NCBI GenBank assembly: GCA_002898315.1
Contig: BEHV01000002.1
Location: 162,729-226,728, forward strand
Length of the DNA stretch: 64,000 bases
Reading direction: 5' to 3'
Origin: a bacterium HR19
GTDB lineage: Bacteria; Calescibacteriota; Calescibacteriia; Calescibacteriales; Calescibacteriaceae
Below the pieces are notes generated by a model. The model searched no databases, was not told the origin of the DNA, and worked only from the letters and a program-made list of their open reading frames with translations. Positions 17,171 through 61,776 of this stretch are shown here, piece by piece (positions within the stretch are counted from its first letter, which is position 1; each line of letters opens with the position of its first letter). The position numbers and the translations under genes were made by a program.

Positions 17171-17245
17171 CGGGGCGTGGCGTAGAGGTAGCGCGTTGGC
17201 ATGGGGGGCCAAAGGTCGCCGGTTCAAATCCGGTCGCCCCGACCA
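17171..17245 (+). tRNA. tRNA-Pro(GGG), CCA encoded
   Basis: Cloverleaf read by eye: acceptor CGGGGCG/CGCCCCG with the C1-G72 pair typical of bacterial tRNA-Pro, D arm GCGT/GCGC, anticodon stem TTGGC/GCCAA with loop ATGGGGG (anticodon GGG), T arm GCCGG-TTCAAAT-CCGGT, discriminator A at 17242 and an encoded CCA at 17243-17245. The thioredoxin ATG follows at 17257. Confidence 0.93.
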
Positions 17246-17256
17246 CCCAAACCAAA

Positions 17257-17574
17257 ATGGCAATACAACTTGACGACAAAAACTTCGATAATGAAATAAA
17301 CTCAGAAAAACCAATACTTGTTGATTTCTGGGCTGCTTGGTGCGCCCCTTGCAGAGCAATAGCTCCAATACTTGAAGAAATAGAAAAAGAAGACGGTGAA
17401 AAAATAAGAATAGGAAAACTCAATGTAGATGAATACCCTGACATCGCTTCAAGATTCAAAATATTCTCTATCCCAACCCTCGTCATATTTAAGTCGGGTA
17501 AGGAATTAGGAAGAATGGTAGGTGCAGCACCAAAATCTAAACTCAAACAGTTTATAGAAGAATCCCTAAAATAA
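17257..17574 (+). CDS. trxA: Thioredoxin (CAPC active site)
   Basis: 105-residue thioredoxin, a cytoplasmic disulfide reductase. Active site WCAPC (Cys29, Cys32) replaces the commoner WCGPC, and cis-proline Pro73 sits in SIPTLVIF. The start ATG is 14 nt after the tRNA-Pro discriminator base, 11 nt after its encoded CCA, with no Shine-Dalgarno sequence in the A/C-rich spacer. The reading frame is open back through the tRNA gene, but only the ATG at 17257 gives the normal thioredoxin N-terminus. The SufD-like gene follows after 25 nt. Confidence 0.92.
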   Translation: MAIQLDDKNFDNEINSEKPILVDFWAAWCAPCRAIAPILEEIEKEDGEKIRIGKLNVDEYPDIASRFKIFSIPTLVIFKSGKELGRMVGAAPKSKLKQFIEESLK

Positions 17575-17599
17575 CCAAAATCCCTTAAAAATTAACTGA

Positions 17600-18658
17600 A
17601 TGCAAGAAATCAAAGGAAGATATATAAGAGTAAAACTCCCAGATAACCTCAAAAGCGTTGAATGGAGAAAATCAGATAGCGAAACAAGAGTCCAAGTATT
17701 CCTCAAACTCTTCAACAAAGAAAGAGAAAAAAATCAGGTCTTCGTTTTTGCGGATGAGGGAATTTTTATCGCAAATTCAAATGTAAAATCTGACATCAGA
17801 ACAAACAAAGCAGAAATCGGAGATACTAGTTTTGAGACAAACGAATTAGCTCTTTTCATCTTTGAAAGTTCAGATGTTTTCTTGATATTCGGAGAGAACC
17901 AAGCAAACTATGTCAGCTCAATCTCTATAACGGTAGAGAGCGGGATATCTGTAAACCTTTTTGAAATCTGGAAGACGCCCCCGCAATCTTCTTCATTTAA
18001 CATAACAAAAATTTATCTCAAACCGTCAAGTTCTCTTAAACTGCTGTTTTTAGAAAACACAGAAGAATCATCCCTCGTGGTTCAGAAAAAAAAGTTTTTT
18101 ATCTCAGAAAGCTCTGATATGTACGGAGGAAATATATGGAGGGGATTAGGAAAAACCTTCGTTTCAGAGGAGGTATATCTTGATGGAGATGAGAGTTCTT
18201 TGAGGGATTTTCACCTGTGCTTGGGAGAAGGTAAGAAAAAACTTGAAGTAAATTACAAAGTTTTTCACAGAGGGAAAAGGACAAAAAGTTTTGTATCTTC
18301 TAAAATTATTTTGAAAGATAGCTCAGAGATTGCTTTCCTTGAAGATGCAGAGATAGAAAATTCAGCTCTTGATTCCGACTCTTATGTAGAGGGCAAGTCG
18401 CTGATTCTTTCGGAAAAAGCCAAAAACTTCCTTATTCCGTCAATGAATATAGGGGTAAATATAGTCAAGGCGAAGCACTCTGCTTCTTGTAGTAGAGTGG
18501 GGGAAAAAGAACTCTTCTATCTTATGTCAAGAGGTCTTGATAGAGAAACTGCCGAAAAACTTATAATATATGGTTTTATATCAGAGATACTTAATGAGTT
18601 CCCTTTGAAACGTTTTATTCCCAAACTCCCTGATTTCCCCCAAGACCTTTTGCTTTGA
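17600..18658 (+). CDS. SufB/SufD-family Fe-S assembly protein (SufD-like)
   Basis: 352 residues. The C-terminal segment HSASCSRVGEKELFYLMSRG, followed by LDRETAEKLIIYGF and a short tail (about 295-345), is the hallmark end of SufB/SufD, which form a beta-helix scaffold with the SufC ATPase for building Fe-S clusters. The family's HGAT motif is HSAS here, followed by a cysteine. The N-terminal two thirds are beta-rich and poorly conserved, fitting SufD more than SufB. No sufB, sufC or sufS lies in the window. It is probably cotranscribed with tRNA-Pro and thioredoxin. Its last 44 nt overlap the 3' end of the opposing GGDEF gene. Confidence 0.72.
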   Translation: MQEIKGRYIRVKLPDNLKSVEWRKSDSETRVQVFLKLFNKEREKNQVFVFADEGIFIANSNVKSDIRTNKAEIGDTSFETNELALFIFESSDVFLIFGENQANYVSSISITVESGISVNLFEIWKTPPQSSSFNITKIYLKPSSSLKLLFLENTEESSLVVQKKKFFISESSDMYGGNIWRGLGKTFVSEEVYLDGDESSLRDFHLCLGEGKKKLEVNYKVFHRGKRTKSFVSSKIILKDSSEIAFLEDAEIENSALDSDSYVEGKSLILSEKAKNFLIPSMNIGVNIVKAKHSASCSRVGEKELFYLMSRGLDRETAEKLIIYGFISEILNEFPLKRFIPKLPDFPQDLLL

Positions 18659-19976
18659 GCAATCTCTTATCTGCAACTTTTATTATCTCCTCGTAGTTTG
18701 AATCCGCTTCTTTTACTGCACATAAGCCCCAGCTCACAGTGGGGCTTTCCCCAAGAATAGCTTTGAGTTCTTGATATAAACTGAATTTTCCAGTTATCCT
18801 CCTTATGACAGATATACTTTCCTCTTTCTCTATTTCATCAAGAAGAAGAACGAACTCATCTCCTCCAAATCTTGCAGGTATATCGTATCCTCTTACATTC
18901 TGCTTCAAAATAAGAGCGAATTTTTTCAAAATCTCATCTCCTACTGTATGACCGTACTTATCATTGATTGACTTGAATCTATCTATGTCAAATATAACTA
19001 CAACATAGTTTTTCTGAGTTCTCCTGTATTTTGCAAAGTTTTGTTCTAAGCGAGCCATAAAATATCTTCTGTTGTATATTGCGGTAAGAGGGTCTGTGAT
19101 AGCTTTTATTTTTAGCTCTTCTTCGGTCTCTATGCGTTTGAGTATAGCAGATGTTAATTTTGAGATAAGATAGAGAAGATTCTTCTTGTTTGCGTCAAGT
19201 TCTCCTCTCACTACTATAAATCCATACTTTTCTCCGTTAGATAATGGAAATGAAGTGTATTCTTTCTCTTCTTCTATCATTCCCTTTGCTATACTATCTA
19301 TGATTTTGCTTAAAAACTCCTCTCCTTTGATTATCTTTATTTTTTCTTTTTTGTCGGTTTCTGTTATTACTTCTTGTTCAGAACTCTTCTCAAATATAGC
19401 TATGCCTATTTCATTTTGGGGTAGTATATACTCCAAAAAATTTCCAACTTCTCTGAAAAGTTTATATCTATCTGTTTCCGCAATTGAGTATCTTATAAAG
19501 TTTGTGAGGTAAATGATAAATTTTTCATGCTTATCAGCAGAAACTAATTTTTCTTTGATTCCTTTTTTGGTTTTCAGTATTGTATAGAATATTTCTTCTA
19601 ACTCTTTTGATAATTCAGGAATACTGATTTTCTCTAATTTTTCGTCCGGGCTTTTGGGGGAAGATGCTTTTTCTTCCTTTCCTTCTGGATTTTCTAATAT
19701 ATTTTTTATGTATTTCAGCTCTTCAAAGAAATTCAATATCTTTGATATGAACTCTCTGTAAATTATAAAGCTCAAAATAAAGAGCGAAAAAGCAATTAAA
19801 ATGAAAGAGATTATATCTATCCTCCCAAAGATGTGGAGCAAAAGGAGAATAATGAAAATAGTTGCAGGAATAATAAAAAAGCTCTTTGGAAGAATGAAAA
19901 ATATTCTCATTTTCGCCAGGGCGAGCGAGGCAAAAGAAAATAAAACAAAAAGCAGTATATACAAAGTGATTTCCAT
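18615..19976 (-). CDS. Membrane-anchored diguanylate cyclase
   Basis: 453 residues. Two or three N-terminal transmembrane helices (about 1-80) are followed by a GAF-like or other sensory region (about 150-290) and a GGDEF domain (about 295-450). The active-site motif FGGDEF is at 370-375, and an allosteric I-site RGYD lies at 362-365, so the enzyme should make c-di-GMP and be product-inhibited. The PilZ protein at 59.1 kb is a possible effector in the same genome. The 3' end overlaps the SufD-like gene. Confidence 0.9.
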   Translation of the reverse strand: MEITLYILLFVLFSFASLALAKMRIFFILPKSFFIIPATIFIILLLLHIFGRIDIISFILIAFSLFILSFIIYREFISKILNFFEELKYIKNILENPEGKEEKASSPKSPDEKLEKISIPELSKELEEIFYTILKTKKGIKEKLVSADKHEKFIIYLTNFIRYSIAETDRYKLFREVGNFLEYILPQNEIGIAIFEKSSEQEVITETDKKEKIKIIKGEEFLSKIIDSIAKGMIEEEKEYTSFPLSNGEKYGFIVVRGELDANKKNLLYLISKLTSAILKRIETEEELKIKAITDPLTAIYNRRYFMARLEQNFAKYRRTQKNYVVVIFDIDRFKSINDKYGHTVGDEILKKFALILKQNVRGYDIPARFGGDEFVLLLDEIEKEESISVIRRITGKFSLYQELKAILGESPTVSWGLCAVKEADSNYEEIIKVADKRLLKAKGLGGNQGVWE

Positions 19977-20069
19977 ATTTGCTCAATCTCCTTCCTCACG
20001 ATTTCCCGATACAATAAAAAATATAAAAATCCTGAATATACTTATTGCTTTACTTATACTTTTTTCTTG

Positions 20070-20075
20070 TATCTT
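20070..20075 (+). promoter_or_regulatory. Putative -10 box of trpF (leaderless-type)
   Basis: TATCTT separated by 5 nt from the trpF ATG at 20081. No ribosome-binding site is visible. It lies in the divergent region between the GGDEF gene and trpF. Confidence 0.3.
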
Positions 20076-20080
20076 ATTTT

Positions 20081-20707
20081 ATGGTTGTGAAGATATGTGG
20101 TCTGACAAATGAGGAAGATGTTCTGCTATGCGACAGCGAAGGAGCAGATATGCTCGGATTCATATTTATAAGGCAAAGCCCAAGATATGTAGAGAAGGGC
20201 TCAAAAATCTTTAAATTGAAAACTCGTGCGAAAAAGGTTGCTGTGCTATCAAATCCAGAGATAAAAAATATTGAATTCTTCGCAGAGCATTTTGAGTTCG
20301 TTCAGCTACACGGATTGGAAGAAAGAAAAACTATAAATGAATTCAAAAAAATCGGTTTGAAAATCATAAAGACAATTTTCCCGGAAGTTGAAGAGTCGGT
20401 AAAGCTGTGCTTTCAAGTTTCAGATGTAGTTGACCTTTTTCTTGTTGATTCGTCTTCCAAACTCAAAGGAGTAAAGAGTTCCCTCTTTTCATTAGAAAAA
20501 CTGAAAGATATATTAGATAGTGAAGGAAAGATTCTCGGTGTGAATTACATATTATCTGGTGGCTTAAATCCCGAAAATGTTGTAGAATTTCTCAGAATCT
20601 TAAAGCCCTACGGTGTTGATGTCGCCTCTGGTGTAGAGGACTCTCCCGGAAAAAAATCTCCCGAAAAAGTGAGAAAATTCATACTAAGTGTAAAAAATTT
20701 TTCTTAA
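20081..20707 (+). CDS. trpF: Phosphoribosylanthranilate isomerase TrpF
   Basis: 208-residue TIM-barrel enzyme that isomerises N-(5-phosphoribosyl)anthranilate to CdRP in tryptophan synthesis. The N-terminus MVVKICGLT with MLGFIFIRQSPR, the QLHG motif and the C-terminal SGGLNPENV and GVDVASGVE phosphate-binding loops are diagnostic. ATG 20081 gives the standard N-terminus; the longer TTG start at 20045 would add an unrelated hydrophobic stretch. No other trp gene is adjacent. The next gene starts 2 nt after its stop. Confidence 0.93.
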   Translation: MVVKICGLTNEEDVLLCDSEGADMLGFIFIRQSPRYVEKGSKIFKLKTRAKKVAVLSNPEIKNIEFFAEHFEFVQLHGLEERKTINEFKKIGLKIIKTIFPEVEESVKLCFQVSDVVDLFLVDSSSKLKGVKSSLFSLEKLKDILDSEGKILGVNYILSGGLNPENVVEFLRILKPYGVDVASGVEDSPGKKSPEKVRKFILSVKNFS

Positions 20708-20709
20708 AC

Positions 20710-21381
20710 ATGCATAAAATCAACTCAAAAATGCGCGAGATAGATTCAGGAATACAATTTGATTTTCCAACCGGAGAAAAAGGTATCTTCTTCTTCAAGA
20801 ATTTTCAAATCACAGAAGAATTCATAAACGATATGGTTCTTGCGAGACAAAATCATACGGGAACAAATATAATTTATCCAGATGAATACAATAAATTTGA
20901 ATTTTTTGATGGCTTGGTCTCTTATAGGAGTGTAAGGCAATATCTTGGTGTTAAGACCGCAGATTGTCTCCCTGTTCTTTTCGCATCAGAGAAGTTAAAG
21001 GGTTGCTTTCATTCTGGATGGAGAGGTCTGATAAACGGTATAGTTGAAAACCTTTATGAAAAGGTGAAAATTATGGGTGAGGATTTTTCAGAAATAACAT
21101 TTGTTATTGGACCTCATATCTGTGGCAGATGCTATGAAGTCAAGGAAGATGTAGCCGATATTTTCATAAGATTTGCAAAGGAGAAAGGTATCAGCCAGAG
21201 TGTATTTATGTATTTCAAAGACCACAAGATTTTTATTGATCTTGCTTCCTGCTGTAAGGCCTTGCTCAAAACATTTTCTGTAAAAAAAATTTTTGATGTC
21301 CAGATATGTGTTAAAGAAGATATGAGGTTTTTTTCAAGAAGAAGGGGAGATAATTCCTCGCAGATTTCAGTGATATTTTAG
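20710..21381 (+). CDS. YfiH/LACC1-type purine nucleoside phosphorylase family protein
   Basis: 223-residue multicopper-oxidase-like (laccase domain) protein. A zinc site can be read as His49 (RQNHTG), Cys86 (KTADCLPVL) and His101 (FHSGWRG), with GPHICGRCYEV at 134-144. Family members cleave adenosine or inosine by phosphorolysis and deaminate adenosine; a peptidoglycan-quality role has been reported for E. coli YfiH. It starts 2 nt after trpF, so the two are translationally coupled. The family is usually encoded elsewhere, and I see no metabolic link to tryptophan. Confidence 0.85.
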   Translation: MHKINSKMREIDSGIQFDFPTGEKGIFFFKNFQITEEFINDMVLARQNHTGTNIIYPDEYNKFEFFDGLVSYRSVRQYLGVKTADCLPVLFASEKLKGCFHSGWRGLINGIVENLYEKVKIMGEDFSEITFVIGPHICGRCYEVKEDVADIFIRFAKEKGISQSVFMYFKDHKIFIDLASCCKALLKTFSVKKIFDVQICVKEDMRFFSRRRGDNSSQISVIF

Positions 21382-21477
21382 GATGAATTTTGTGTTTAGT
21401 TATTGAGCGTGGGAGAGCATATTTTGTAAAAGAAGATATTTTTGTCCGAAGGTAATAAAATAATTTTTTTATATTGG

Positions 21478-21564
21478 GGGTAGGTGGCGGAATGGTAGAC
21501 GCAGGGGACTTAAAATCCCCTGGGGGTGTAAACCCCCGTGCGGGTTCAAGTCCCGCCCTACCCA
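21478..21564 (+). tRNA. tRNA-Leu(UAA)
   Basis: Type II tRNA: acceptor GGGTAGG/CCTACCC, anticodon loop CTTAAAA (anticodon TAA) closed by GGGGA/TCCCC, a long variable arm GGGGGT/ACCCCC, T arm GCGGG-TTCAAGT-CCCGC and discriminator A at 21564. CCA is not encoded. The FIST protein GTG follows at 21575, exactly 10 nt after the discriminator base. Confidence 0.93.
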
Positions 21565-21574
21565 CATATTATTT

Positions 21575-22705
21575 GTGTTTTGTACAACCTCTTTCTCTAA
21601 CATCAAAAGCGAAGAAAAAGCATGCAAGAGCATCATAGATGAAGTTATAAGTAAACTTGAACTACCGAGAAAAAAAGATATGATGCTCATAATTTTCCTC
21701 AGCTCAAAATACAAAGTTGAAAAAGTGATGGATTTTTTTTCAGATATAGATAATATCGGTGTCTCTGTTGGTGGAAATATAACAGATGATGGTGAATTTG
21801 AAGGAGAAGAGTCAGGAATATCTGTTCTCGCAATAGATAAAAGGTATATCCGTTGTCAGAGCTTCTCTTTTTCCGTCCCACAAATGGGATTGAGGGAAGT
21901 AGGTAGAAAAATCGCAGAAAGATTTGCAACAGACATACCATCATCTCTAATTCTTTTTCCAACCCCTTTTTATAACATAGATGAAATTCTGAACGGAATA
22001 AGAGATATAAAAAGTGATAACCTTTTTGTAACCGGAGGAGTAGCGAGTTCTTATGGAGATTCTCCTATCTTTACATTTGAAAATGGCTCGATAGGAAGCT
22101 ATGCGATAAGTGGAGTGTTTTTGGAAGGTGTGGAGGGAAGCGGAAGAGTTGCTCAGAGCTGTAAAGTTGTGAGCAGTAAGTTTGTGGTTACATCATCAGA
22201 AACCAATGTCATAGAGGAGATAGATGGAGAGTTAGCTTCTGATGTGTTGAACTATGTTGCTTCTGAAGTAATTACCGAAGAACCCGATATAGGAAAATTA
22301 CCATGGTTCGTCGGAGTTGAAATTGACAGCAGATTGGAGCTGTTCAGATTCTATCCTATTTTAGATGTCAAAAACGGGTATATATATGTTGGTGGTGAAG
22401 TGGAGGTAGGAAAAAACATAGTGTTTGCGGTTATGTCTCGGAAATATGCAGATGAGATTTCAAAAATGGAGTTTTCATCCATCAGTCCTAATTTATCTTA
22501 CGATTTTTGCATGATTTTCAACTGCCTTGCGAGAGGAAAAAAGTTTTTCGGAAGAAAAAATCACGATATATCAATAGTAAAAAAGAGATTGAAGTGTTCT
22601 ATAGGTGGGTTTTTTTCAAACGGTGAAATAATAACTTTGGGTTCGCCTTTTCTTTTCACATACTCAGCAGTTCTCGCAAATTTCAGAAAAGTTTTCATAT
22701 CGTAA
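21575..22705 (+). CDS. FIST-domain sensor protein
   Basis: 376 residues spanning FIST_N (about 5-190) and FIST_C (about 200-355). The FIST_C core reads VAQSCKVVSSKFVVTSSETN then VIEEIDGELASDVL, matching the family pattern around a conserved A-Q-x-C block. FIST proteins are stand-alone or signal-coupled cytoplasmic sensors thought to bind small ligands such as amino acids. GTG 21575 lies 10 nt after tRNA-Leu with no Shine-Dalgarno sequence, and gives the usual family N-terminus. The two genes that follow encode membrane coiled-coil proteins resembling degenerate chemoreceptor signalling domains, so this may be their ligand-sensing partner. Confidence 0.8.
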   Translation: MFCTTSFSNIKSEEKACKSIIDEVISKLELPRKKDMMLIIFLSSKYKVEKVMDFFSDIDNIGVSVGGNITDDGEFEGEESGISVLAIDKRYIRCQSFSFSVPQMGLREVGRKIAERFATDIPSSLILFPTPFYNIDEILNGIRDIKSDNLFVTGGVASSYGDSPIFTFENGSIGSYAISGVFLEGVEGSGRVAQSCKVVSSKFVVTSSETNVIEEIDGELASDVLNYVASEVITEEPDIGKLPWFVGVEIDSRLELFRFYPILDVKNGYIYVGGEVEVGKNIVFAVMSRKYADEISKMEFSSISPNLSYDFCMIFNCLARGKKFFGRKNHDISIVKKRLKCSIGGFFSNGEIITLGSPFLFTYSAVLANFRKVFIS

Positions 22706-22768
22706 TTGAGCTATATGGTTTTTATTGTAAAATTCGGAAGAAATATTTAAACTAATTTTTATATACTT

Positions 22769-24508
22769 ATGCTTTGGCTCTATGCTATAAGGTTTGTGCT
22801 CAAATTGCTTGCTGTCTCCTTTGTTGATTACTCTAAAATCACGTCTCCTGAATTTTCCTTGCCTTTCCTTTTCATTTCCTCTTTTGAAATATTATTTTCA
22901 CGCAGATTATATTCTCGCAGAGAAAACATATATCTTATCGCAATAGCTTCTTTTCTCATCTATCTTATCACAATATACTCCAAAGCTCATCTTTATCTCC
23001 TTTTGCTTTTCTTATTCATTGATATAAGCTCGGGAATGGCTATTTTTTTGAGATGGGTGGTATTTCTACCTCTGATATTTACGGTTGCGATTTTCTCTCT
23101 CAATATCCCTGTTTTATTTGTGTCTCGCTCGGTGAGTCCAGATAAAGACCTACCCGAAAATTTCAAGGTGATCAAAGGAAGCATGATAGACAGATACACG
23201 GGGAAAAAGGGGAGTGTAAATTTTTTGGGTGGTTTCCTTGTTGGTAATTATCTTTTTTCCACAACATCTCCAGAAGGAGACGAGTTCTTTGTTTTTCTGA
23301 GAACAATTGATAGCGAGAAAGAAATACTCTTTTTTTCTTTTTTGATAATTTTGAGTTTGATTTTCGTACTACTTATTTTGCAAACTGAAAGAAAAGATTT
23401 TTCCGCAGATTCATACTCAAATGGTAAAGCCAAAACAGATAGAAATATATCTGATGAAAAGGGGGTGCCAAGCGAAGATAAAACCGAACTCTTTGCTCTA
23501 TACAAAAAATATTTAGAAGAAGCCATATCAAATCTGAAAGTAAACATTGAAGAAGATAAAGCTTACCTATCATCAATCACCAAAACCTTAGACGATTTCA
23601 AGTTTAAGGTCTCATCAATACTTCTTGAAAGATCATCTGAAACAGATGTAGGGTCATTGATTAAGAATTTCAAATCATCAATATATGATAAAGTTCAGCA
23701 AATATCTAAAAAGATTGATGAGTTTGAAAGAGTCATTGATATTTCTGCATTTGAGAGAATTCAGCTCTCATCTTATGATTTTTATCTCTCTCTTATTACA
23801 CTTAAAGAGAGTATAAGCTCACTCCGTGAAATTTTGCTCCATAAGTTCAGAAATATTGAGTATGTTTTCCACGAGATTTACTCCCCTCTTGGCGGTATAG
23901 AGAATGATATTGGTAAAATAAGATTTTTCAACATACAGAAAATTTTTGATTTTTCCGACATTGAAGAGGTATTTCAGGATTTTTGTGAAATGATTGTAAG
24001 GTTCAAATCAAGTATATCTGCAATTCTTGACAGCATAAAAATTCTCGCTTTCAACTCTTTCGTGATAGCATATAAAATAAAGGACAAGGTGGAAAGCTTT
24101 GAAGTCCTTTCATCAGCGATAGAGATGATAATGGTAAATGTAGAGAATTTTTACTCTGAAGTGCAGGAGCTATGGAATGTGGTAGAGGAAAATCTGGCAA
24201 ACCTTAGGTTTGAAAACCCAGGTATTTCACTTGACGAGCTTGAAAAACAGATTGCCGAAGCGAAGAAAATATTAGACGAAGGAATGCAGGGAATAAGGTC
24301 TTTCGTAAGTTCTCTTGTCCAGTTTACCAATACATTTTTGAACAATTTAAGTTCGGGTATAGAAGATATGACAGAAGGTACCAATTTCTTCTCCAAAGTT
24401 CATATCAAATTTGAACTCCTGAAAGATAGTTTTGATTTGATAAAAGGAGATATTTCTCTGCTAGAAGATTTTGCAAGTAAAAAAAGTGAGGGGGTGGAAG
24501 AAAAATGA
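22769..24508 (+). CDS. Membrane coiled-coil protein, degenerate chemoreceptor-like
   Basis: 579 residues. The N-terminal half-membrane region has several helices (about 5-125), a short extracytoplasmic loop (about 130-185) and a final helix near 190-210. It is followed by about 360 residues of mainly coiled coil. Near 415-445 the sequence ILDSIKILAFNSFVIAYKI followed by FEVLSSAIEM has the shape of a methyl-accepting hairpin tip (I-x-x-I-A-x-N-A-x-I-E-A then F-x-V-V-A-x-E-V), but the CheW-contact residues are lost. This resemblance is read by eye. The stop overlaps the next start (ATGA). Confidence 0.5.
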   Translation: MLWLYAIRFVLKLLAVSFVDYSKITSPEFSLPFLFISSFEILFSRRLYSRRENIYLIAIASFLIYLITIYSKAHLYLLLLFLFIDISSGMAIFLRWVVFLPLIFTVAIFSLNIPVLFVSRSVSPDKDLPENFKVIKGSMIDRYTGKKGSVNFLGGFLVGNYLFSTTSPEGDEFFVFLRTIDSEKEILFFSFLIILSLIFVLLILQTERKDFSADSYSNGKAKTDRNISDEKGVPSEDKTELFALYKKYLEEAISNLKVNIEEDKAYLSSITKTLDDFKFKVSSILLERSSETDVGSLIKNFKSSIYDKVQQISKKIDEFERVIDISAFERIQLSSYDFYLSLITLKESISSLREILLHKFRNIEYVFHEIYSPLGGIENDIGKIRFFNIQKIFDFSDIEEVFQDFCEMIVRFKSSISAILDSIKILAFNSFVIAYKIKDKVESFEVLSSAIEMIMVNVENFYSEVQELWNVVEENLANLRFENPGISLDELEKQIAEAKKILDEGMQGIRSFVSSLVQFTNTFLNNLSSGIEDMTEGTNFFSKVHIKFELLKDSFDLIKGDISLLEDFASKKSEGVEEK

Positions 24509-40798: not shown

Positions 40799-40893
40799 CA
40801 ATTTCTTTTTGTAATTCCTAAATTTTTCTTATGAGGTTTTATTTTTCTTTTCAATTGTAAAATAGATTGAAGATAGGGGAGGTAGTGAGGTTT

Positions 40894-41652
40894 ATGGCAG
40901 GGCACTCAAAATGGCACAATATAAAGCATAAGAAAGCAGCACAGGACCAGAAGAGAGGGAGAATTTTCACAAAGGTGATCAGAGAGATTGAGGTTGCGGT
41001 AAGACAAGGGGGGCCGAACCCCGAGACAAATCCTCGTCTGCGACTTGCGATTGAGATGGCAAAAAGTGTCAACATGCCAAAAGAGAATATAGAAAGAGCT
41101 ATAAAGAAAGCAACAGGTGAACTCGGTGGTGAAAAACTTGAAGAGGTCTTCTTTGAGGGATATGGTCCCGGCGGAGTTGCAATGTATATCTCTGCTATAA
41201 CAGATAATAAAAATAGAACCGCTTCCCAAATAAGAGCAATCTTTTCAAAATTCGGCGGAAGCCTCGCAGAAGCTGGTTCTGTATCATGGCTCTTTGAAAT
41301 GAAAGGAGTCATCACATTTCAGAAGAACTCTATACCTTCAAAAGATGAATTTATAGATTTCGTCATAGAAAGCGGAGCAGAAGATATAAACGAACTTGAT
41401 GATGTGATTGAGGTGTACTGCAACCCTAAAAATTTTGAAGAACTGAAAAAGAAAATTGAAGATGCTGGATGGAGATACGAAAGAGCAGAAATAAGCTTTG
41501 TGCCAAAAAGTACGGTTAAGGTATCGGGCAAAGATGCAGAACATCTCCTCAAACTTATGAACGCAATTGATGAACTTGACGATGTACAAAAGGTATGGGC
41601 AAACTTTGAAATAGAAGATGAAGAAATGGAAAGATTGATTGCAACAATGTAG
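40894..41652 (+). CDS. yebC: YebC/PmpR-family translation/regulatory protein
   Basis: 252 residues beginning MAGHSKWHNIKHKKAAQDQKR, the family's invariant N-terminus, which fixes ATG 40894. A GGGGAGG site lies upstream. The three-domain TACO1/YebC fold is complete. Members act as transcription regulators, and recent work links YebC to relief of ribosome stalling at proline runs. The stop codon TAG ends on the first base of tRNA-Tyr (41652), so the mRNA and tRNA must be separated by cutting at the stop codon. Confidence 0.94.
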   Translation: MAGHSKWHNIKHKKAAQDQKRGRIFTKVIREIEVAVRQGGPNPETNPRLRLAIEMAKSVNMPKENIERAIKKATGELGGEKLEEVFFEGYGPGGVAMYISAITDNKNRTASQIRAIFSKFGGSLAEAGSVSWLFEMKGVITFQKNSIPSKDEFIDFVIESGAEDINELDDVIEVYCNPKNFEELKKKIEDAGWRYERAEISFVPKSTVKVSGKDAEHLLKLMNAIDELDDVQKVWANFEIEDEEMERLIATM

Positions 41653-41735
41653 GGGAGGTGCCGGAGCGGTCAAACGGGCCCGGCTGTAAACCGGGTGGCC
41701 CCAGGCCTACGGGGGTTCAAATCCCTCCCTCCCCA
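41652..41735 (+). tRNA. tRNA-Tyr(GUA)
   Basis: Type II tRNA: acceptor GGGGAGG/CCTCCCC, anticodon loop CTGTAAA (anticodon GTA) on stem CCCGG/CCGGG, variable arm TGGCCCCAGGCCTA, T arm GGGGG-TTCAAAT-CCCTC and discriminator A at 41735. CCA is not encoded. Its first base is also the last base of the yebC stop codon. The next protein start (TTG 41746) is 10 nt after the discriminator. Confidence 0.93.
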
Positions 41736-41745: not shown

Positions 41746-42195
41746 TTGCTCCTTACCACTATCTACTCAATTATATCTTTCTCATTCTTCCTCAACATAA
41801 AGGGTGGTTTGTCTTTTCCTTCCTCAATAGCCCAGAAGGTTTCTCCTTCCTTCGCTTTTGCTCTCGGAGTTGCGGAATTTGATAGCTTTGATGCTGGAGC
41901 AAACTTTTACTTCTTCCCATCTGCCGGTTTTTTCTTCCCATCATCAAGAGTTTCAATACGTTTTGATTCCCCTGGCTTTTTCGCAAGCATAGGAGCAGGA
42001 ATCGGTCCAGGTATTCAGTCCCAGAGACAAAAAATTTTAGCTTATCTTGGACTTGAGACATTTGGAGATTTCGGAGTGTGGATAGAACCAAGGAGGTTTT
42101 CTGCCCACCTTTCCCCTATAATTTCCGGTTTTTTTGGAAGTAATTCCGGATACATAATTTCTCTTCTCTTCGGTTTCTCGGTGTTCTCCCCGTAA
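41746..42195 (+). CDS. Putative exported beta-barrel-like protein
   Basis: 149 residues from TTG 41746. A hydrophobic N-terminus (SIISFSFFLNIKGGLSFPSS, about 9-28) could be a signal peptide. The rest alternates aromatic and small residues in short beta-strand-like blocks with many Phe and Gly, and ends in LLFGFSVFSP, as small outer-membrane proteins often do. No family is recognised. The frame is also open through tRNA-Tyr, but nothing in the tRNA portion looks like protein. The start is 10 nt after the tRNA and has no Shine-Dalgarno sequence. Reality as a gene is likely but not certain. Confidence 0.55.
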   Translation: MLLTTIYSIISFSFFLNIKGGLSFPSSIAQKVSPSFAFALGVAEFDSFDAGANFYFFPSAGFFFPSSRVSIRFDSPGFFASIGAGIGPGIQSQRQKILAYLGLETFGDFGVWIEPRRFSAHLSPIISGFFGSNSGYIISLLFGFSVFSP

Positions 42196-45114: not shown

Positions 45115-45534
45115 CTATACCCCAATTATTTTTACTATCACCTTTCTTGTTCTGGGACCATCAAACTCAACCAGGAAGATTCCTTGCCATGTTCCCCACG
45201 GTAAGCTCCCGTTTTCTATTGGTATAGAAACTGAACTTCCAACAATTGAGGTCTTTATATGAGCATCAGCGTTTCCTTCTGTGTGTGAGTAGCTTCCTCT
45301 GTGAGGTATGATTCTGCTGAGTGTTTCGTGAATATCTTTCTGAACCGTTGGGTCCCAGTTTTCGTTTATCATAACTCCACAGGTTGTGTGTGGAATAAAC
45401 ACTGCCATAATTCCATCTTTTATACCGCTTTCTGAAAGAATCTTTTCAACTTCTTTGGTTATATCTACGCTTGATGTTCTTGACGGGGTTTTGACCTGTA
45501 TTGTTTTAGAGAAGGTTTTGAAACTTCCGGACAA
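45115..45534 (-). CDS. yjbQ: YjbQ/UPF0047 family protein
   Basis: 139 residues, a compact beta-barrel trimer family. Motifs IPHTTCGVMINENWDP (around 50-65), HRGSYSHTEGNADAHIKTSI and WGTWQGIFLVEFDGPR are diagnostic. Members have been assigned thiamin-phosphate-synthase-like side activity in E. coli, but the physiological role is uncertain. The start is TTG at 45534, 13 nt after the tRNA-Thr discriminator base, and no alternative ATG exists before the conserved core. The spacer CCCCAAAAATTTT has no Shine-Dalgarno sequence. Confidence 0.88.
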   Translation of the reverse strand: MSGSFKTFSKTIQVKTPSRTSSVDITKEVEKILSESGIKDGIMAVFIPHTTCGVMINENWDPTVQKDIHETLSRIIPHRGSYSHTEGNADAHIKTSIVGSSVSIPIENGSLPWGTWQGIFLVEFDGPRTRKVIVKIIGV

Positions 45535-45547
45535 AAAATTTTTGGGG

Positions 45548-45620
45548 AGCCAAGGGTGGGATTCGAACCCACGACCTGGTGCTTACAAGGCACCCGCTCT
45601 ACCACCTGAGCTACCTTGGC
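45548..45620 (-). tRNA. tRNA-Thr(UGU)
   Basis: Minus-strand cloverleaf: acceptor GCCAAGG/CCTTGGC, D arm GCTC/GAGC, anticodon stem GGTGC/GCACC with loop CTTGTAA (anticodon TGT), T arm GTGGG-TTCGAAT-CCCAC and discriminator T at 45548. CCA is not encoded (CCC follows). The yjbQ homologue begins 13 nt downstream on the same strand. Confidence 0.95.
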
Positions 45621-53734: not shown

Positions 53735-53762
53735 ATCATCAGGTTGGGGAGCGTGTAAAAAT

Positions 53763-55389: not shown

Positions 55390-55392
55390 AAT

Positions 55393-55398: not shown

Positions 55399-55482
55399 AT
55401 TCTTCAGCTCTATTACTGAATAAATAGATAATAAAACTGCTTTTTATATCTTCCTTTGAGAAAATTCAGAATTTATTTTTCA

Positions 55483-56814
55483 ATGTGGCACGAGTGGAAA
55501 GACGAAGAGCTGTCAAAAGACCCAAGATATAAGCTCTTATTTATAAGGTCGTTCGGAGAAGCTGAAAGTGAGTTTATGGAAAAGGGTGTCTTCGGAAGAA
55601 AAGGAATTGAAACTCTAACCCAAAGATATATGCCGGTCAAAGTTGATGCAGAAGAAAGACCAGATATATTTTTGAGATACGCTCTGAAAACGACCCCAAC
55701 AGTCATTATACTCACAAGAGATGGAAAAATCATAGGTGGAGGAAATTTTTGCGACTACGATACCTTTATAAAGTTCATGGTTGAGCTCGGGACCCTCATC
55801 ACAAAACAAAAACACATAATAGAAAATATTGCAGCAGAAGATATAAAAGAAGATGATGAAGAAAATTTTTCTGAGCCGGAATCAGAATTTATAAACCAGG
55901 TAAGCTCATCTATACCTCATCTATTAGATAAGATTTTGAACTCATCTCTGATTTCTCCGAAGATTCTTTTTCTCGGACTTGATTTCTTTATAAAAAATGG
56001 AGATGAGGCGAAGGCGAGGAAAGTTATTGAACTACTTTCAAAAGCGGAAGATAAAATAGAAGGTGGATTATTTTCTTCACAGTCCTTTGAAAACCCCACG
56101 AAATTCTCAACTCAAAAAAGCTCTCTTATAAACGCAAAGTACGCGCTTTTACTCAAAAAATTCTACGAAAAATTCAAAGATGAAGAGATAAATAAAAAAT
56201 TCGCTCAACAGTTTGAATTTCTGAAAACATTTTATAATCAGAATTTCTTCATCAATAAGATTGCGGAAGATGAAGAATATTATAAATCTACAAAAAGCAT
56301 AAGAGATATAAGACAGAAACCTCAAAGAGATGAAAGGTTGTTTTTTGATCTAAATCTTGAAATAGCTGAAATTCTTGTTGAGATGGGGGAGATAGAAGAT
56401 GCAAGAAAAATAACAGATTATGTTATTTCCGAACTTGTTGAAGTATCGGGAGACGAGATAAAAATTTTTCACTCAAACAAAAAAGATACTTTTAACCTCC
56501 TGTGCGATGTCTCACAAGGAATTATAACACTCTACAAAATCTATAAAGAGACAAAAGAAGAAAAGTACAGAAAACTCATAGCGAAATTTGAAAAGGTCTT
56601 GAACTCAAAAAAAGGAGATGTGCTTTATTTTGATTTCAACAAAAACGGCTTCGGTGCCCTGAAAAAGAAAAAAATAGATATTTTTGCAAATATAAAGGTA
56701 TCAAAATATTTTGAATTTATTGGAGAGAAGGAGAGAGCAGAGAAAATTAAAAGGTTGCTCCTACCTTATGCTATGACAAAAGATACTTTCGCATTTTTAT
56801 ACGCCTTATTATAA
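55483..56814 (+). CDS. Divergent DUF255/YyaL-type thioredoxin-fold protein lacking CxxC
   Basis: 443 residues from ATG 55483 (an in-frame TTG at 55456 would add nine). The start MWHEWKDEEL and the block MPVKVDAEERPDI (about 55-70) match the N-terminal domain of the DUF255/SSP411 (YyaL) family, followed by TPTVIILTRDGKIIGGG. The family's CHWCHVM redox motif is replaced by EAESEFM, so the thioredoxin function is lost. The remaining about 330 residues are helical and shorter than the alpha/alpha barrel of full-length members. It is 14 nt upstream of der. Function unknown. Confidence 0.62.
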   Translation: MWHEWKDEELSKDPRYKLLFIRSFGEAESEFMEKGVFGRKGIETLTQRYMPVKVDAEERPDIFLRYALKTTPTVIILTRDGKIIGGGNFCDYDTFIKFMVELGTLITKQKHIIENIAAEDIKEDDEENFSEPESEFINQVSSSIPHLLDKILNSSLISPKILFLGLDFFIKNGDEAKARKVIELLSKAEDKIEGGLFSSQSFENPTKFSTQKSSLINAKYALLLKKFYEKFKDEEINKKFAQQFEFLKTFYNQNFFINKIAEDEEYYKSTKSIRDIRQKPQRDERLFFDLNLEIAEILVEMGEIEDARKITDYVISELVEVSGDEIKIFHSNKKDTFNLLCDVSQGIITLYKIYKETKEEKYRKLIAKFEKVLNSKKGDVLYFDFNKNGFGALKKKKIDIFANIKVSKYFEFIGEKERAEKIKRLLLPYAMTKDTFAFLYALL

Positions 56815-56828
56815 AAAATTATCCTGAT

Positions 56829-58334
56829 ATGATAAAGGTAGCAATAGTCGGAAGAGTCAATACCGGAAAATCTACGCTTTTTAACGATCTTGTTGGCTCA
56901 TCTGTTTCAATAACATGGAAAGAACCCGGAACTACAAGAGACGTTGTAGAAGCAATAGCTCACTCAAAAAAAAGAAGCTATGTACTTATGGATACAGCCG
57001 GATACACTTTTGAAGACGACCCGATGTATGAGATTTTCAAAGCCCAGTCAGATAGAGCAATAGAAGAATCAGATATAGTAATAGCTGTGTTTGATGTCAA
57101 ATCTGGCTTCACAGATATAGATGATATGGTAAGGAAAAAAGTGATAAGAAGTGGCAAACCGTTTATTTTTGTAGTAAATAAAGTTGATTCAAAAAACCTT
57201 GAACTTCTTGCGTTCTCCGAGTTCTCACAGCTTGGGAAGAACTTCATAACTGTATCTGCTCTCCACAAAAAAAACATAGAGAAAATCTTTGAAGAACTTG
57301 ATAAAATAGCAGATGAGCTTGAAAAAGAGAAATCAGAAAAAGCAGATTACGATCTGGAAGAAGAGGCATTTGATATTAAAATGCAGGAAATACTTTCAAT
57401 ACAGAGCTTGAAAGAATTAGAAAGAAAAATAGATGAGGAGAGAGAAAAAGAAATTCAGTCCGCATTCAGAAGAGAAATTCTGAAAGAAAGTGAAGAAGTA
57501 GAAGAAACATATAAAGAGCTTTATGAAAAGAAAGAAAAAAGGGAGAAAATAAGAATATCGTTTGTTGGGAGACCGAATGTCGGAAAATCTTCCCTTATAA
57601 ATGCTATTTTGGGCTATGAAAGATGTGTGGTGTATCACGAGCCGGGAACGACAAGAGATGCAATAAGGATTCCCTTCCGGTTTAACAATACAGATTTCAT
57701 ACTTGTAGATACACCCGGGTTGAGGAAAAAATCAAAAATAGATGTTGAAGGTCTTGAATTCAAGTCGGTCGGTAGGTCTCTTACCGCTATTTTCGTCTCA
57801 GATGTATGTGTTCTTGTTATAGATTCTGCGGAGGGAGTGACTCATCAAGATAAAGCTATTGCTGGTCTTATAGAAAGAAGGGGCAGAGGACTTGTTGTTG
57901 CATTCAACAAAATAGATATAATAAAAGAACTCAAACCCGCAGGAGGAATAGGAACTTTCGTTTCTGCTCTGAAAACCTCTTTGAAGTTCATAAAGTGGGC
58001 TTACTTTATTCCTGTATCTGCGAAGACAAAATATGGTATTGATGGTCTTCTTTCTGCAATAAAATCATCTTACCAGAGCTGGACAAAAAAACTCAAACCC
58101 TCTCAGCTTCTCAAAATAAGAGAAAGATTAGTTCAACTTGATTTTATGAGGAATCAAAGCCCGAAAATTTTTCAACTCACAGTGAAGCCACCGACATTTC
58201 TCGTATATGTCAATGAACCAGAAAATCTGAGGAAGTATCAGGTAAAGCATATAGAAAAGATAATTCGTCAGCTTTATGGCTTTTATGGAAGCCCGATTCA
58301 TTTCAGAGTAAAAAGGCATGGAGAACCATACTGA
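56829..58334 (+). CDS. der: Ribosome-assembly GTPase Der (EngA)
   Basis: 501 residues with tandem G domains: first P-loop GRVNTGKS (8-15), second GRPNVGKS near 247-254, NKVD and NKID base motifs, and a C-terminal KH-like domain ending in the typical HFRVKRHGEPY. Der matures the 50S subunit. The linker between G domains (about 160-240) is an unusually long, highly charged coiled coil, making the protein some 60 residues longer than the common 435-490. It follows the DUF255-like gene by 14 nt. Confidence 0.95.
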   Translation: MIKVAIVGRVNTGKSTLFNDLVGSSVSITWKEPGTTRDVVEAIAHSKKRSYVLMDTAGYTFEDDPMYEIFKAQSDRAIEESDIVIAVFDVKSGFTDIDDMVRKKVIRSGKPFIFVVNKVDSKNLELLAFSEFSQLGKNFITVSALHKKNIEKIFEELDKIADELEKEKSEKADYDLEEEAFDIKMQEILSIQSLKELERKIDEEREKEIQSAFRREILKESEEVEETYKELYEKKEKREKIRISFVGRPNVGKSSLINAILGYERCVVYHEPGTTRDAIRIPFRFNNTDFILVDTPGLRKKSKIDVEGLEFKSVGRSLTAIFVSDVCVLVIDSAEGVTHQDKAIAGLIERRGRGLVVAFNKIDIIKELKPAGGIGTFVSALKTSLKFIKWAYFIPVSAKTKYGIDGLLSAIKSSYQSWTKKLKPSQLLKIRERLVQLDFMRNQSPKIFQLTVKPPTFLVYVNEPENLRKYQVKHIEKIIRQLYGFYGSPIHFRVKRHGEPY

Positions 58335-58353
58335 AAAGCAAAAACAAAAATCA

Positions 58354-59052
58354 TCACTTTATCAATCCGTACTTTTCTTTTGAGAAATTGTAGATTTTGA
58401 GGAGAACCATTTTGAAAACCTCATTCGGCTCATTTTCTCCGTCCACAATAAAAACATTCTCTTGCGTCTTTGATATTTCAAGATAGTATTCTCTTACTCT
58501 TCTCAAAAAGTCCTCTCCTTCTCTTTCAAATCTGTCTTTCTTGCTTTCATCTTGTCTGTATCTTTCTTTCAACCTTGAAATTCCGACTTCTGGTTTTACA
58601 TCAATCACTATTACAATTTCGGGTTCTACACCTCCTGTTGAGAGGTAGCAGAGCATAGGGAGCGTCTCCGGAAAAAGCATTCTTCCTCTTCCCTGATATG
58701 CAAGGGTAGAGTGAGAGAATCTATCGGAGATAACGATTTTACCTTTTCTGAGTGCTGGCTTTATAACCTCTTCAACGAGTTGTCTTCTTGCCGAGAGGAA
58801 TAAAAAGAGTTCAGCGGTAGGAGATATTTCTATGTTTGATTTGAGTATTTTTCTTATTTTTTCTCCGAGTTTTGTAGTTCCAGGGTCCTTTACGAGAATT
58901 GCGGGGAGTCCGATTTTTTTGAGCGCTGATGTGAGAATTTTTGCCTGAGTTGTTTTTCCTGAACCCTCTATACCTTCAAAAGATATAAAGTGAGGAATAT
59001 CGCGCAATCTCTTAAAATCAGAAAGTATATCTTTTATATCGCTATCTATCAT
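58354..59052 (-). CDS. tmk: Thymidylate kinase
   Basis: 232 residues. P-loop FEGIEGSGKTT (25-35), the DPG motif (VKDPGTTKLGEKIR) and DRFSHSTLAYQGRGR identify dTMP kinase, which makes dTDP for DNA synthesis. About 20 extra residues precede the core. The usual E/R placement of the lid region is seen as RYRQDESKKDRFE. It converges on der with 19 nt between stops. Confidence 0.93.
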   Translation of the reverse strand: MIDSDIKDILSDFKRLRDIPHFISFEGIEGSGKTTQAKILTSALKKIGLPAILVKDPGTTKLGEKIRKILKSNIEISPTAELFLFLSARRQLVEEVIKPALRKGKIVISDRFSHSTLAYQGRGRMLFPETLPMLCYLSTGGVEPEIVIVIDVKPEVGISRLKERYRQDESKKDRFEREGEDFLRRVREYYLEISKTQENVFIVDGENEPNEVFKMVLLKIYNFSKEKYGLIK

Positions 59053-59106
59053 CTATACCTGAAAAAATATTTTCCGAAAAAATTATTAACGCATTTGCAA
59101 ATTATG

Positions 59107-59112
59107 TAAAAT
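59107..59112 (+). promoter_or_regulatory. Putative -10 box of the PilZ gene
   Basis: TAAAAT, preceded by TG as an extended -10 would be nearby (TATGTAAAAT), lies 10 nt before ATG 59123. No ribosome-binding site is seen between. It sits in the 70-nt divergent spacer between tmk and the PilZ gene. Confidence 0.35.
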
Positions 59113-59122
59113 AAAAAGTAAT

Positions 59123-59602
59123 ATGTCAGAGGAAAAATCGGCGAGAAAAAGTAAAAAGAGAGCAAAAGAAAAAAAAGAAGCCAGAACTAATAATGGAGCA
59201 AAAAGCAAAAAGAGAGAGAAAAAAAACTACAATTATAGTGATAGAGATATGGAAGAGAGAAGGAAATCCAAAAGGTATCCTACGGAAATTGAAGTGAGAT
59301 ATTCATCAGAGCAAGGTTTGGCTGTTGAGTGGATAACAAATATATCAAAAGGAGGGATGTTCATAAAGTCAGAAAATCCTCTTCCTCCGGGAACCCCTCT
59401 CAAAATAACTTTCTCTGTTCCTGGCAGGGAGGACTTATCTATTGAGGTTGAAGGAGTTGTCAAGTGGAGGGCAGAACCATCTGACCCATCTATAATACCC
59501 GGAATAGGAGTTGAAATAACGAAAATAGATGACAGAAACAGAAAGCTCTTTGAAGAACTTATTGAGAGTTTGACAAAAAAACAAAATCAGAGAACTGCTT
59601 GA
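59123..59602 (+). CDS. PilZ-domain c-di-GMP-binding protein with lysine-rich tail
   Basis: 159 residues. A highly basic N-terminal tail (about 1-40) precedes a PilZ domain with RRKSKR (46-51) and NISKGG (73-78), the two c-di-GMP-contacting motifs. The C-terminal portion PGIGVEITKIDDRNRKLFEEL is as in the short myxococcal-type PilZ subfamily. The basic tail could bind nucleic acid or membrane. It is a likely effector for the GGDEF enzyme at 18.6 kb. Its stop lies 3 nt from the stop of the convergent tusA. Confidence 0.86.
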   Translation: MSEEKSARKSKKRAKEKKEARTNNGAKSKKREKKNYNYSDRDMEERRKSKRYPTEIEVRYSSEQGLAVEWITNISKGGMFIKSENPLPPGTPLKITFSVPGREDLSIEVEGVVKWRAEPSDPSIIPGIGVEITKIDDRNRKLFEELIESLTKKQNQRTA

Positions 59603-59605
59603 AAA

Positions 59606-59848
59606 TTATCTTTTCCTTATATAGAATTTAAATACACCGTTTTCCTCCTGTGAGGCGATAAGTTCATGACCTGTCTGAGAGCAGAACGCTGGAAAATCTT
59701 TTTTCGCCCCCGGGTCATCTGCGAGAATAAGCAAAATTTGTCCTGTTTTCAATTGGTCAAGATATTTTCTCGCTTTTATAACTGGCATAGGACATTTCAT
59801 TCCCCTTGCGTCAAATTCTAAATCGGGTTTTCCTATCTCCCTTTCCAT
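59606..59848 (-). CDS. tusA: TusA-family sulfur carrier
   Basis: 80 residues. The CPMP motif with Cys19 (MKCPMPVIKA) and the ADDPGAKKDFPAF segment are diagnostic of TusA/SirA. The cysteine carries persulfide sulfur to acceptors. A GGGAGG site precedes the ATG. It is 38 nt downstream of the DsrE2-like gene on the same strand; in sulfur metabolisers these two genes commonly travel with a rhodanese, which is absent here. Confidence 0.9.
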   Translation of the reverse strand: MEREIGKPDLEFDARGMKCPMPVIKARKYLDQLKTGQILLILADDPGAKKDFPAFCSQTGHELIASQEENGVFKFYIRKR

Positions 59849-59886
59849 ATTTTATCCTCCCTTTAATTATTAAATTTAAGAATTTT

Positions 59887-60402
59887 TCATATAAACAGGC
59901 AAATTCCACCTTTTGCTTCTGATATAAATGTAGCTGCTCCGACTATTTCTTGGACTTCGTCTATGAGCTGGTCTTTATCTACTCCAAGTATACTGCATGA
60001 GGTAGAGCAGGCGTAAAACTTGACTCCCGATTCTTTTGCTGCCTGAAAGAGGTCATCTAGGGTAGGTGAGCCGGTCTTTTTCATAAGGATTTTCATCATA
60101 GCCGGAGCAATTCCAGCCATGTTCATTTTTGACAGACCAAGGGAGTTCAAACCTTTTGGCATCATCATTTCCATCATCTTTTGAATGAAGTTTTTACCTT
60201 TGAATTTTCTCTTTTTCTTTATGAGAGAAAGTCCCCAGAAAGTGAAGAATATTGCGACATCCATTCCGAGCGATGCGGCGGTTGAAGCAAGCGTAAGGAC
60301 AGCGAACGCCTTATCCATATCTCCTGAAAAGCAAATTATCCTCAATTTGTTGTGCGGGTCTGCTCCTTCTATTTGTAATGCTCTCTCTCTTTCTTGGGAC
60401 AT
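59887..60402 (-). CDS. DsrE2-like DsrE/DsrF family protein
   Basis: 171 residues. The core FSGDMDKAFAVLTLASTAASL (25-45), VAIFFTFWGLSL and the cysteine motif ACSTSC (Cys132, Cys136) followed by LGVDKDQLIDEVQEIVGA are typical of the DsrE2 group, membrane-associated or soluble persulfide-handling proteins. Several Met-rich segments (FIQKMMEMMMPKG) are present. GGAGGTG lies 8 nt before the ATG. With tusA it forms a probable sulfur-transfer operon that could feed ThiI or respiratory sulfur metabolism (inference). Confidence 0.85.
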   Translation of the reverse strand: MSQERERALQIEGADPHNKLRIICFSGDMDKAFAVLTLASTAASLGMDVAIFFTFWGLSLIKKKRKFKGKNFIQKMMEMMMPKGLNSLGLSKMNMAGIAPAMMKILMKKTGSPTLDDLFQAAKESGVKFYACSTSCSILGVDKDQLIDEVQEIVGAATFISEAKGGICLFI

Positions 60403-60450
60403 CTTTTATCTCACCTCCTTTTTCTTATTCATTTATATTAGTTATTTTCT

Positions 60451-60499
60451 TTTGCGGTTTGGAGTTTTGCGGTTTTGTTGAATTTTGAATTTGCGGTTT
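60451..60499. repeat. Three direct copies of TTTGCGGTTT
   Basis: Exact copies start at 60451, 60466 and 60490 (spacings 15 and 24 nt) in the 150-nt region between the divergent dsrE2 operon and tRNA-Ser. They are much more GC-containing than the surrounding AT tract. Candidate binding sites for a regulator of dsrE2-tusA or of the tRNA-Ser unit; no known motif is recognised. Confidence 0.6.
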
Positions 60500-60552
60500 A
60501 TTTTTTACTTTTGCCAAACTTGATTTTTCGGGATTAATCTTTTTTTGATTTT

Positions 60553-60644
60553 GGAGAGGTGCCGGAGCGGACGAACGGGACGGACTTGAAATCCGTTGGG
60601 GGCGATAAGCTCCCTCGTGGGTTCAAATCCCACCCTCTCCGCCA
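60553..60644 (+). tRNA. tRNA-Ser(UGA), CCA encoded
   Basis: Type II tRNA: acceptor GGAGAGG/CCTCTCC, anticodon loop CTTGAAA (anticodon TGA) on stem ACGGA/TCCGT, long variable arm, T arm GTGGG-TTCAAAT-CCCAC, discriminator G at 60641 as expected for serine, and an encoded CCA at 60642-60644. The next protein ATG at 60652 is 10 nt after the discriminator. Confidence 0.94.
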
Positions 60645-60651
60645 TCAATAC

Positions 60652-61776
60652 ATGAAAACTCCCATAATGCAAAAACTCCCATCTCCAAACTTCCTAAAAT
60701 CAAAAATCTTTATTCTGCTGTTCATCTCACTTTTTTTATCTTATGTATCAAATTCATCAGCAGATTATCCTGATACCCTGCCTTTTCAAGATATAATAAG
60801 AATTGACTCTTTCAGAAAAGATATGATAATTCCATTCCTTGAACTCAGGTTTTCAATGTGGCAGAAAAAAATAAATGCTCAAGATATATCACTTAACCTT
60901 GATAACTACTCAATACTGACATCTGTCAAGGGAGTGAACTATGGATGGGAACAGGTGGTAAAGCTTTCCGGGAACAAAGTATCTGTGCAGGACTTTGATG
61001 TCGGATTCTCAACTGAATATGCTTTTTCAGATTCATTCTTCGCAAGAGCAAGTGTATTTTCAAGGTATAGAACTTTCGGACCTATTTCATCTTTTGGGCT
61101 GGGCGATATATTTTTATCTTTTTCTTTCAGGTTGATGAGAGAGCCGATTGAGATATTTCCGGGTTTTTCGGCTGTTATACCTCTTGCAGGAGAGCCAGAT
61201 GAGAATCTCATAACTTTCAGAAGAATTAATGTTTCGTCTTTTGGTGTGGATTTTCCGTTTCAACTGCTTGCGAAAAAAAGAATTCAGTTTGGAGAAACCG
61301 AGCTATCTCCTTACGCCTTGGCGGGATACATTCTACGGATAGGTTATATAATTTTCGGGCAGAATGTTTTTCCGGGAGATATAGTGTTCGGCGGTGTTGG
61401 TATATCTTCAAGGATAAGAAATTTTTTTCTGACACGAGGGGATTTATCTCATGACCTTGGGATTTCGTCTTCAATCTTTGTGCTTCACGGGTTTCCAGAA
61501 TCTCAAGACGCTTCAATATATAAGGTGACGGGGAGCTCGTGGGATATTGTCAAGTTGAAGATAAATCCTTCTTTTATTTTGAAGAAGGAATTTGAGGAGC
61601 TCGGAAAAAAGCAGGTAAGGGATTTTGCATTCGTTGAGCTTTCTCTGTTCTTTACCATGTATGAGAGGAGTTTTATTTATCTTGGGAATCAGGAGTATGT
61701 TCTGCAGAGGTTTCCGTTTTTAGATAGGGTCAAACCGGGCTTTTCTTCAATTCTATCAGCAGGTCTGATATTCTGA
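60652..61776 (+). CDS. Putative outer-membrane beta-barrel protein
   Basis: 374 residues. A signal peptide (about 1-37) ends near SSADYP. The mature part alternates hydrophobic and polar residues in strand-length blocks and terminates in SAGLIF, a C-terminal aromatic residue after a final strand as in BAM-inserted barrels. No family is recognised; the pattern (DVGFSTEYAF, GLGDIFLSFSF) resembles transporters of the OmpA/porin-like general type. ATG 60652 lies 10 nt after tRNA-Ser with no Shine-Dalgarno sequence; a second ATG at 60667 is possible. The frame is open through the tRNA but that portion is not protein-like. Confidence 0.75.
   Translation: MKTPIMQKLPSPNFLKSKIFILLFISLFLSYVSNSSADYPDTLPFQDIIRIDSFRKDMIIPFLELRFSMWQKKINAQDISLNLDNYSILTSVKGVNYGWEQVVKLSGNKVSVQDFDVGFSTEYAFSDSFFARASVFSRYRTFGPISSFGLGDIFLSFSFRLMREPIEIFPGFSAVIPLAGEPDENLITFRRINVSSFGVDFPFQLLAKKRIQFGETELSPYALAGYILRIGYIIFGQNVFPGDIVFGGVGISSRIRNFFLTRGDLSHDLGISSSIFVLHGFPESQDASIYKVTGSSWDIVKLKINPSFILKKEFEELGKKQVRDFAFVELSLFFTMYERSFIYLGNQEYVLQRFPFLDRVKPGFSSILSAGLIF

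Follow-up and report, generated by a model that had tools for sequence, protein, structure and literature searches.

Each of the five tRNA genes in the window (the whole 64,000-nt stretch of DNA analysed here) is followed on its own strand by the start of a protein gene, which raises the question of whether tRNA excision generates the 5′ ends of the downstream mRNAs. ARAGORN and Rfam found exactly the five tRNA genes of the initial annotation, at the positions given there, and with the Rfam 3′ end taken as the discriminator base the spacers up to the start codons (14, 10, 10, 13 and 10 nt for Pro, Leu, Tyr, Thr and Ser, respectively) were identical to those reported (Table 1). As had also been noted, none of the five spacers contains a Shine-Dalgarno (SD) motif, and three of the five start codons are GTG or TTG. 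A model of coding potential that had been trained on the window, and was blind to the tRNAs, chose the same start in four cases and extended the Ser-led gene into the tRNA. The ORFs listed for the Pro and Ser junctions begin upstream of the real start; at such junctions, gene callers may place the start of a tRNA-led gene within or 5′ of the tRNA.

Table 1. Coordinates of the tRNA genes, spacers and adjoining protein genes in the window.
Feature	Position	Strand	Remarks
tRNA-Pro(GGG) body	17171..17242	+	CCA encoded (17243-17245); ARAGORN, Rfam
Pro spacer, 14 nt, CCACCCAAACCAAA	17243..17256	+	No SD
Thioredoxin gene, ATG 17257	17257..17574	+	TIGR01068; tRNA-gene pair also in G003 and G004
tRNA-Leu(TAA)	21478..21564	+	CCA not encoded; ARAGORN, Rfam
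Leu spacer, 10 nt, CATATTATTT	21565..21574	+	No SD
FIST-domain protein gene, GTG 21575	21575..22705	+	PF08495/PF10442; pair with 10-nt spacer in G004
Protein gene 5′ of tRNA-Tyr	40867..41652	+	Last base of TAG is first base of tRNA-Tyr
tRNA-Tyr(GTA)	41652..41735	+	CCA not encoded; ARAGORN, Rfam
Tyr spacer, 10 nt, CACAAAAAAA	41736..41745	+	No SD
149-aa protein gene, TTG 41746	41746..42195	+	Hydrophobic N-terminus; no family match
tRNA-Thr(TGT)	45548..45620	-	Discriminator 45548; Rfam
Thr spacer, 13 nt, CCCCAAAAATTTT	45535..45547	-	No SD
YjbQ gene, TTG 45534	45115..45534	-	TIGR00149
tRNA-Ser(TGA)	60553..60641	+	CCA encoded (60642-60644); ARAGORN, Rfam
Ser spacer, 10 nt, CCATCAATAC	60642..60651	+	No SD
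374-aa protein gene, ATG 60652	60652..61776	+	No family match; hydrophobic N-terminus

The products had been described as thioredoxin, a FIST sensor, YjbQ and two envelope proteins. Family matches support the first three, but the Tyr- and Ser-led proteins matched no family, and their description as envelope proteins derives only from their hydrophobic N-termini.

The statement that every tRNA gene leads into a protein gene holds for the window (5/5), but not for the genome as a whole (G000), where a same-strand CDS comes after 33 of the 45 tRNA genes, a convergent gene after eight and another tRNA gene after three, with one case unclassified. The genome-wide scan of tRNA-to-start distances that had been proposed as a check nevertheless came out in favour of the observation. 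In 26 of the 33 same-strand cases the predicted start lies 9–15 nt after the discriminator (mode 9–10), a count that includes one corrected start (SmpB, PF01668; a TTG at 3 nt replaced by an in-frame ATG at 9 nt) and depends on a genome-wide discriminator rule which is off for a few tRNAs (11 or 12 nt for Thr-TGT, compared with 13 nt by Rfam). Gaps between same-strand CDSs fall within this range in 7 of 126 cases (median 55 nt), and this difference (Fisher p = 2.6e-17), obtained with a simple custom gene caller in which a few same- or opposite-strand assignments were settled by a score rule, bears out the view that the geometry is not due to chance.

RNase P RNA was considered as a second RNA class that might show the tRNA geometry, which was not seen: at the few, orthologous loci available the nearest same-strand starts were 60–170 nt away. 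In G004 (L125, G004:C49), RNase P RNA, tRNA-Asp and hslV are arranged in series on one strand, approx. 59 nt and 12 nt apart.

The family is represented in the collection by five genomes (G000–G004), two of which (G003 and G004) belong to two other genera; the remaining sampled genomes are related at the domain level only. The comparison with related genomes revealed the same short tRNA-to-start geometry in both of these genera, with starts located within 3–16 nt of a same-strand tRNA at 25 of 36 junctions in G003 and 22 of 33 in G004 (together 47/69). Longer spacers account for approx. one fifth of the same-strand junctions in G000 and one third in G003 and G004.

For most of the tRNA-led genes of G000, the homologue in G003 and/or G004 is also tRNA-led, nearly always by the same tRNA (protein identity 38–89%), and the N-termini of the homologues mostly align. 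Across genera the spacers are unrelated in sequence, while their length is often roughly kept. In G000, G002, G003 and G004 the spacer is 9 nt throughout for both the Val/PfkB kinase pair and the pair of tRNA-Pro with a protein without known function, and 12 nt throughout for Asp/HslV. The lengths in G000, G003 and G004 are 9, 9 and 9 nt for Cys/release factor, 9, 10 and 9 nt for Gln/ribose-phosphate pyrophosphokinase, and 11, 9 and 9 nt for Ser/DnaX. As for the two window proteins that matched no family, the 149-aa protein has a homologue in G003 that is also led by tRNA-Tyr (spacer of 9 nt), and the 374-aa protein has homologues in G003 and G004 behind the same tRNA (8 nt each). Not all pairs retain the spacer length, as seen for YjbQ (13, 7 and 188 nt) and MreB (20, 14 and 9 nt). 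In HslV, the catalytic N-terminal Thr directly follows the Met; since this Thr is required at that position, the TTG start of the gene is certain.

In the three genera taken together, 73 of 102 junctions are of the short type (3–16 nt), and SD-like 4-mers are missing from 70 of these 73 spacers, which are followed by ATG (39), TTG (21) or GTG (13). Within G000 no SD was found in front of 25 tRNA-led genes, compared with 17–22% of the genes in other classes; for this genome alone the deficit is modest (approx. 5 expected). The 3′ end of its 16S rRNA (CACCTCCTTT) has an intact anti-SD. Moreover, tRNA-Leu(CAA) (L037 and the corresponding loci of G003 and G004) is followed by a spacer of 93–111 nt in which an AAGGAGG-type SD is kept in all three genera, and this conservation indicates that the SD system is functional.

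CCA is encoded in 39–42% of the tRNAs of the three genera counted. The mean spacer measures 10.6 nt where it is encoded and 9.7 nt where it is not (p = 0.21); this near-independence indicates that the spacer length is set from the tRNA body.

A sequence scan of 25 junctions of G000 for −10 boxes between tRNA and start detected TATAAT-like (5/6) matches at only two isolated positions (−11 and −8). On the 5′ side of the tRNAs there are mostly 40–280 nt to the preceding gene and a TANAAT peak at −16/−15, which indicates that a unit usually begins with its tRNA. An exception in the window is tRNA-Tyr, which lies inside a protein operon, as the stop codon of the preceding gene overlaps its first base. 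Operon-leading genes without an SD show a weak TANAAT peak at −13, which points to leaderless mRNAs for many other genes of G000. A de novo motif search by EM returned an uninformative motif.

Each of the five family genomes contains RNase P RNA, and the idea that the tRNAs are transcribed leaderless and dispense with RNase P was rejected on this ground. The initial annotation had named RNase Z as the 3′ processing enzyme, and this part of its proposal was not upheld: no member of TIGR02651, the canonical RNase Z, scored above the cut-off in any of the five (best 36–51 bits, against a cut-off of 293). The best-scoring protein is similar to class II cAMP phosphodiesterase as well, and the only solved structures that it matches are those of 3′,5′-cyclic-nucleotide phosphodiesterase 1. 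Two candidates found via PF12706 were rejected, one being a UlaG-like hydrolase (L128) and the other a 256-aa protein closest to class II cAMP phosphodiesterase. The genomes are 82–86% complete, and it is unlikely that RNase Z was missed by chance in all five; the family may possess a divergent or unrelated tRNA 3′ enzyme. With canonical RNase Z absent the cut site is not fixed, so the spacer gives only an upper bound for the length of the mRNA leader.

The suggestion that tRNA maturation releases the mRNAs otherwise agrees with the geometry, its conservation, the SD-less starts, the near-absence of promoters at the junctions, the free space and −10 peak 5′ of the tRNAs and a spacer length counted from the tRNA body. 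From these observations we infer co-transcription, cleavage and the mode of translation, and consider it probable that most of the family's tRNA genes that precede a protein gene on their own strand form the 5′ part of a promoter-tRNA-mRNA unit, whose tRNA would be excised to leave a nearly leaderless mRNA. A promoter directly 5′ of the tRNA, to which the weak −10 peak points, would give a single transcript composed of a short 5′ leader, the tRNA, a spacer of 9–14 nt and the start codon. RNase P would form the 5′ end of the tRNA, and an endonuclease other than canonical RNase Z would cut at or just past its 3′ end. The freed mRNA would carry a 5′ leader of at most approx. 9–14 nt and no SD, and its translation would be initiated in the 5′-end-dependent manner of leaderless mRNAs, seemingly a common route in this genome. 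The tRNA would then be a product, a leader and a 5′-end-forming element at once, comparable to mitochondrial tRNA punctuation. Genes led by tRNAs include hslV, prs, smpB, dnaX, mreB and those of a peptide release factor and thioredoxin, and we tentatively put forward, as a possibility with slightly less than even chances, that tRNA excision by a non-RNase Z endonuclease is a general maker of mRNA 5′ ends for housekeeping genes, coupling protein output to the transcription and maturation of tRNAs.

The main rival to this proposal is compaction, because convergent genes likewise abut tRNA 3′ ends: at six of the eight tRNAs with a convergent neighbour (L004, L006, L007, L009, L022 and L038) the 3′ end of that gene is −1 to 17 nt away, which leaves no space for an intrinsic terminator behind the tRNA, and the genome is fairly compact. 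If tRNA 3′ ends required neither terminator nor trailer, and most genes required no SD leader, neighbours in either orientation could simply pack against the tRNAs; co-transcription would be incidental and translation independent of processing. That compaction is the whole explanation seems rather unlikely, given that same-strand CDSs seldom lie 9–15 nt apart, that the upstream side of the tRNAs is not compacted and that the spacers have a mode of 9–10 nt and a length often constant between genera.

The spacers, counted from the tRNA body and not from CCA, also resemble in length (9–14 nt) the distance from an SD to its start codon, and together with the lack of a detectable canonical RNase Z in the family this would fit translation of an uncut tRNA-mRNA precursor, in which the tRNA body, near the site of the SD helix, would act as a structured 5′ element that places the start codon. 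We regard such a mechanism as improbable, since the tRNA must be released in order to function and a bulky structure situated 9 nt before the start codon would be expected to clash with the ribosome; moreover, we found no precedent for it among the open-access papers searched. Finally, each downstream gene could have its own leaderless promoter, located in the 3′ half of the tRNA or in the spacer. Other genes of this genome do seem to carry −10 boxes close upstream of their starts, and the Leu spacer contains TATTAT, but the scarcity of TATAAT-like matches at the junctions and the G+C-rich 3′ half of the tRNA, constrained by tRNA structure, make this explanation very improbable.

Excision of the tRNA from a joint transcript, the reading we prefer, has known parallels. 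The mitochondria of animals use RNase P and RNase Z to cut tRNAs out of the transcript, which generates nearly leaderless mRNAs with 0–3 nt left (tRNA punctuation). Both systems have a tRNA directly 5′ of a protein gene, an SD-less start and no intervening promoter, and in the family, too, excision would make the mRNA 5′ end. In contrast to mitochondria, (i) the arrangement occurs on a bacterial chromosome, in many separate units in which the tRNA is mostly the first gene, (ii) a spacer of 9–14 nt is present (a little, not none) and cleavage is proposed from the sequence, and (iii) RNase P RNA is present but canonical RNase Z was not found in the five genomes. Mixed tRNA-protein operons also occur in E. 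coli (thrU-tyrU-glyT-thrT-tufB, tyrT-tpr and metY-nusA); they are few, their spacers are longer and their protein genes have an SD. In the family, too, tRNA and protein gene probably share one transcript, judging from the short gap and the missing promoter, but there the arrangement predominates, and its short spacers, devoid of an SD, are conserved between genera.

Propionibacterium acnes has no obvious tRNase Z, and approx. half of its tRNAs encode CCA (PMC3848588). Endonucleolytic cuts occur at its tRNA 3′ ends, where the 5′ ends of downstream fragments are found, and leaderless mRNAs are common (PMC3848588). The family resembles this bacterium in that no canonical RNase Z was found, in the partial encoding of CCA and in its (predicted) leaderless mRNAs, but most tRNAs of P. 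acnes are described as individually transcribed, and the passages devoted to them describe no tRNA-led mRNAs (PMC3848588).

If the proposal is correct, this little-known bacterial lineage would provide a chromosome-wide bacterial counterpart to mitochondrial tRNA punctuation, tRNA supply would be coupled to the expression of core genes, and a further tRNA 3′ endonuclease would be expected in bacteria lacking RNase Z.

The distribution of the trait was surveyed in approx. 290 sampled genomes with a pattern composed of a T-arm plus an ATG at 9–15 nt, the same pattern shifted by 10 nt serving as the control. The family genomes gave 11–17 matches each (67 in total, against 24 for the control); in most other genomes the counts at the true and shifted spacing were similar, i.e. 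there was no excess. Short junctions were absent from G006, G011 and G012, and G007 had two at 17–18 nt. On inspection, the matches in G222 and G218 turned out not to have this geometry, and G085 and G129 are sporadic carriers at most.

No RNase Z above the cut-off was detected in G093, a genome from another phylum-level lineage (77% 16S identity to G000). The canonical enzyme was found neither in the five family genomes nor in G093, though fewer than half of the tRNAs encode CCA (three genera counted). The survey gave 18 matches in G093 (6 for the shifted control), and 10 of 17 sampled same-strand junctions have spacers of 8–13 nt, in front of genes different from those in the family. This geometry indicates that the trait, although rare, extends beyond one family, and its occurrence in the two lineages is perhaps convergent.
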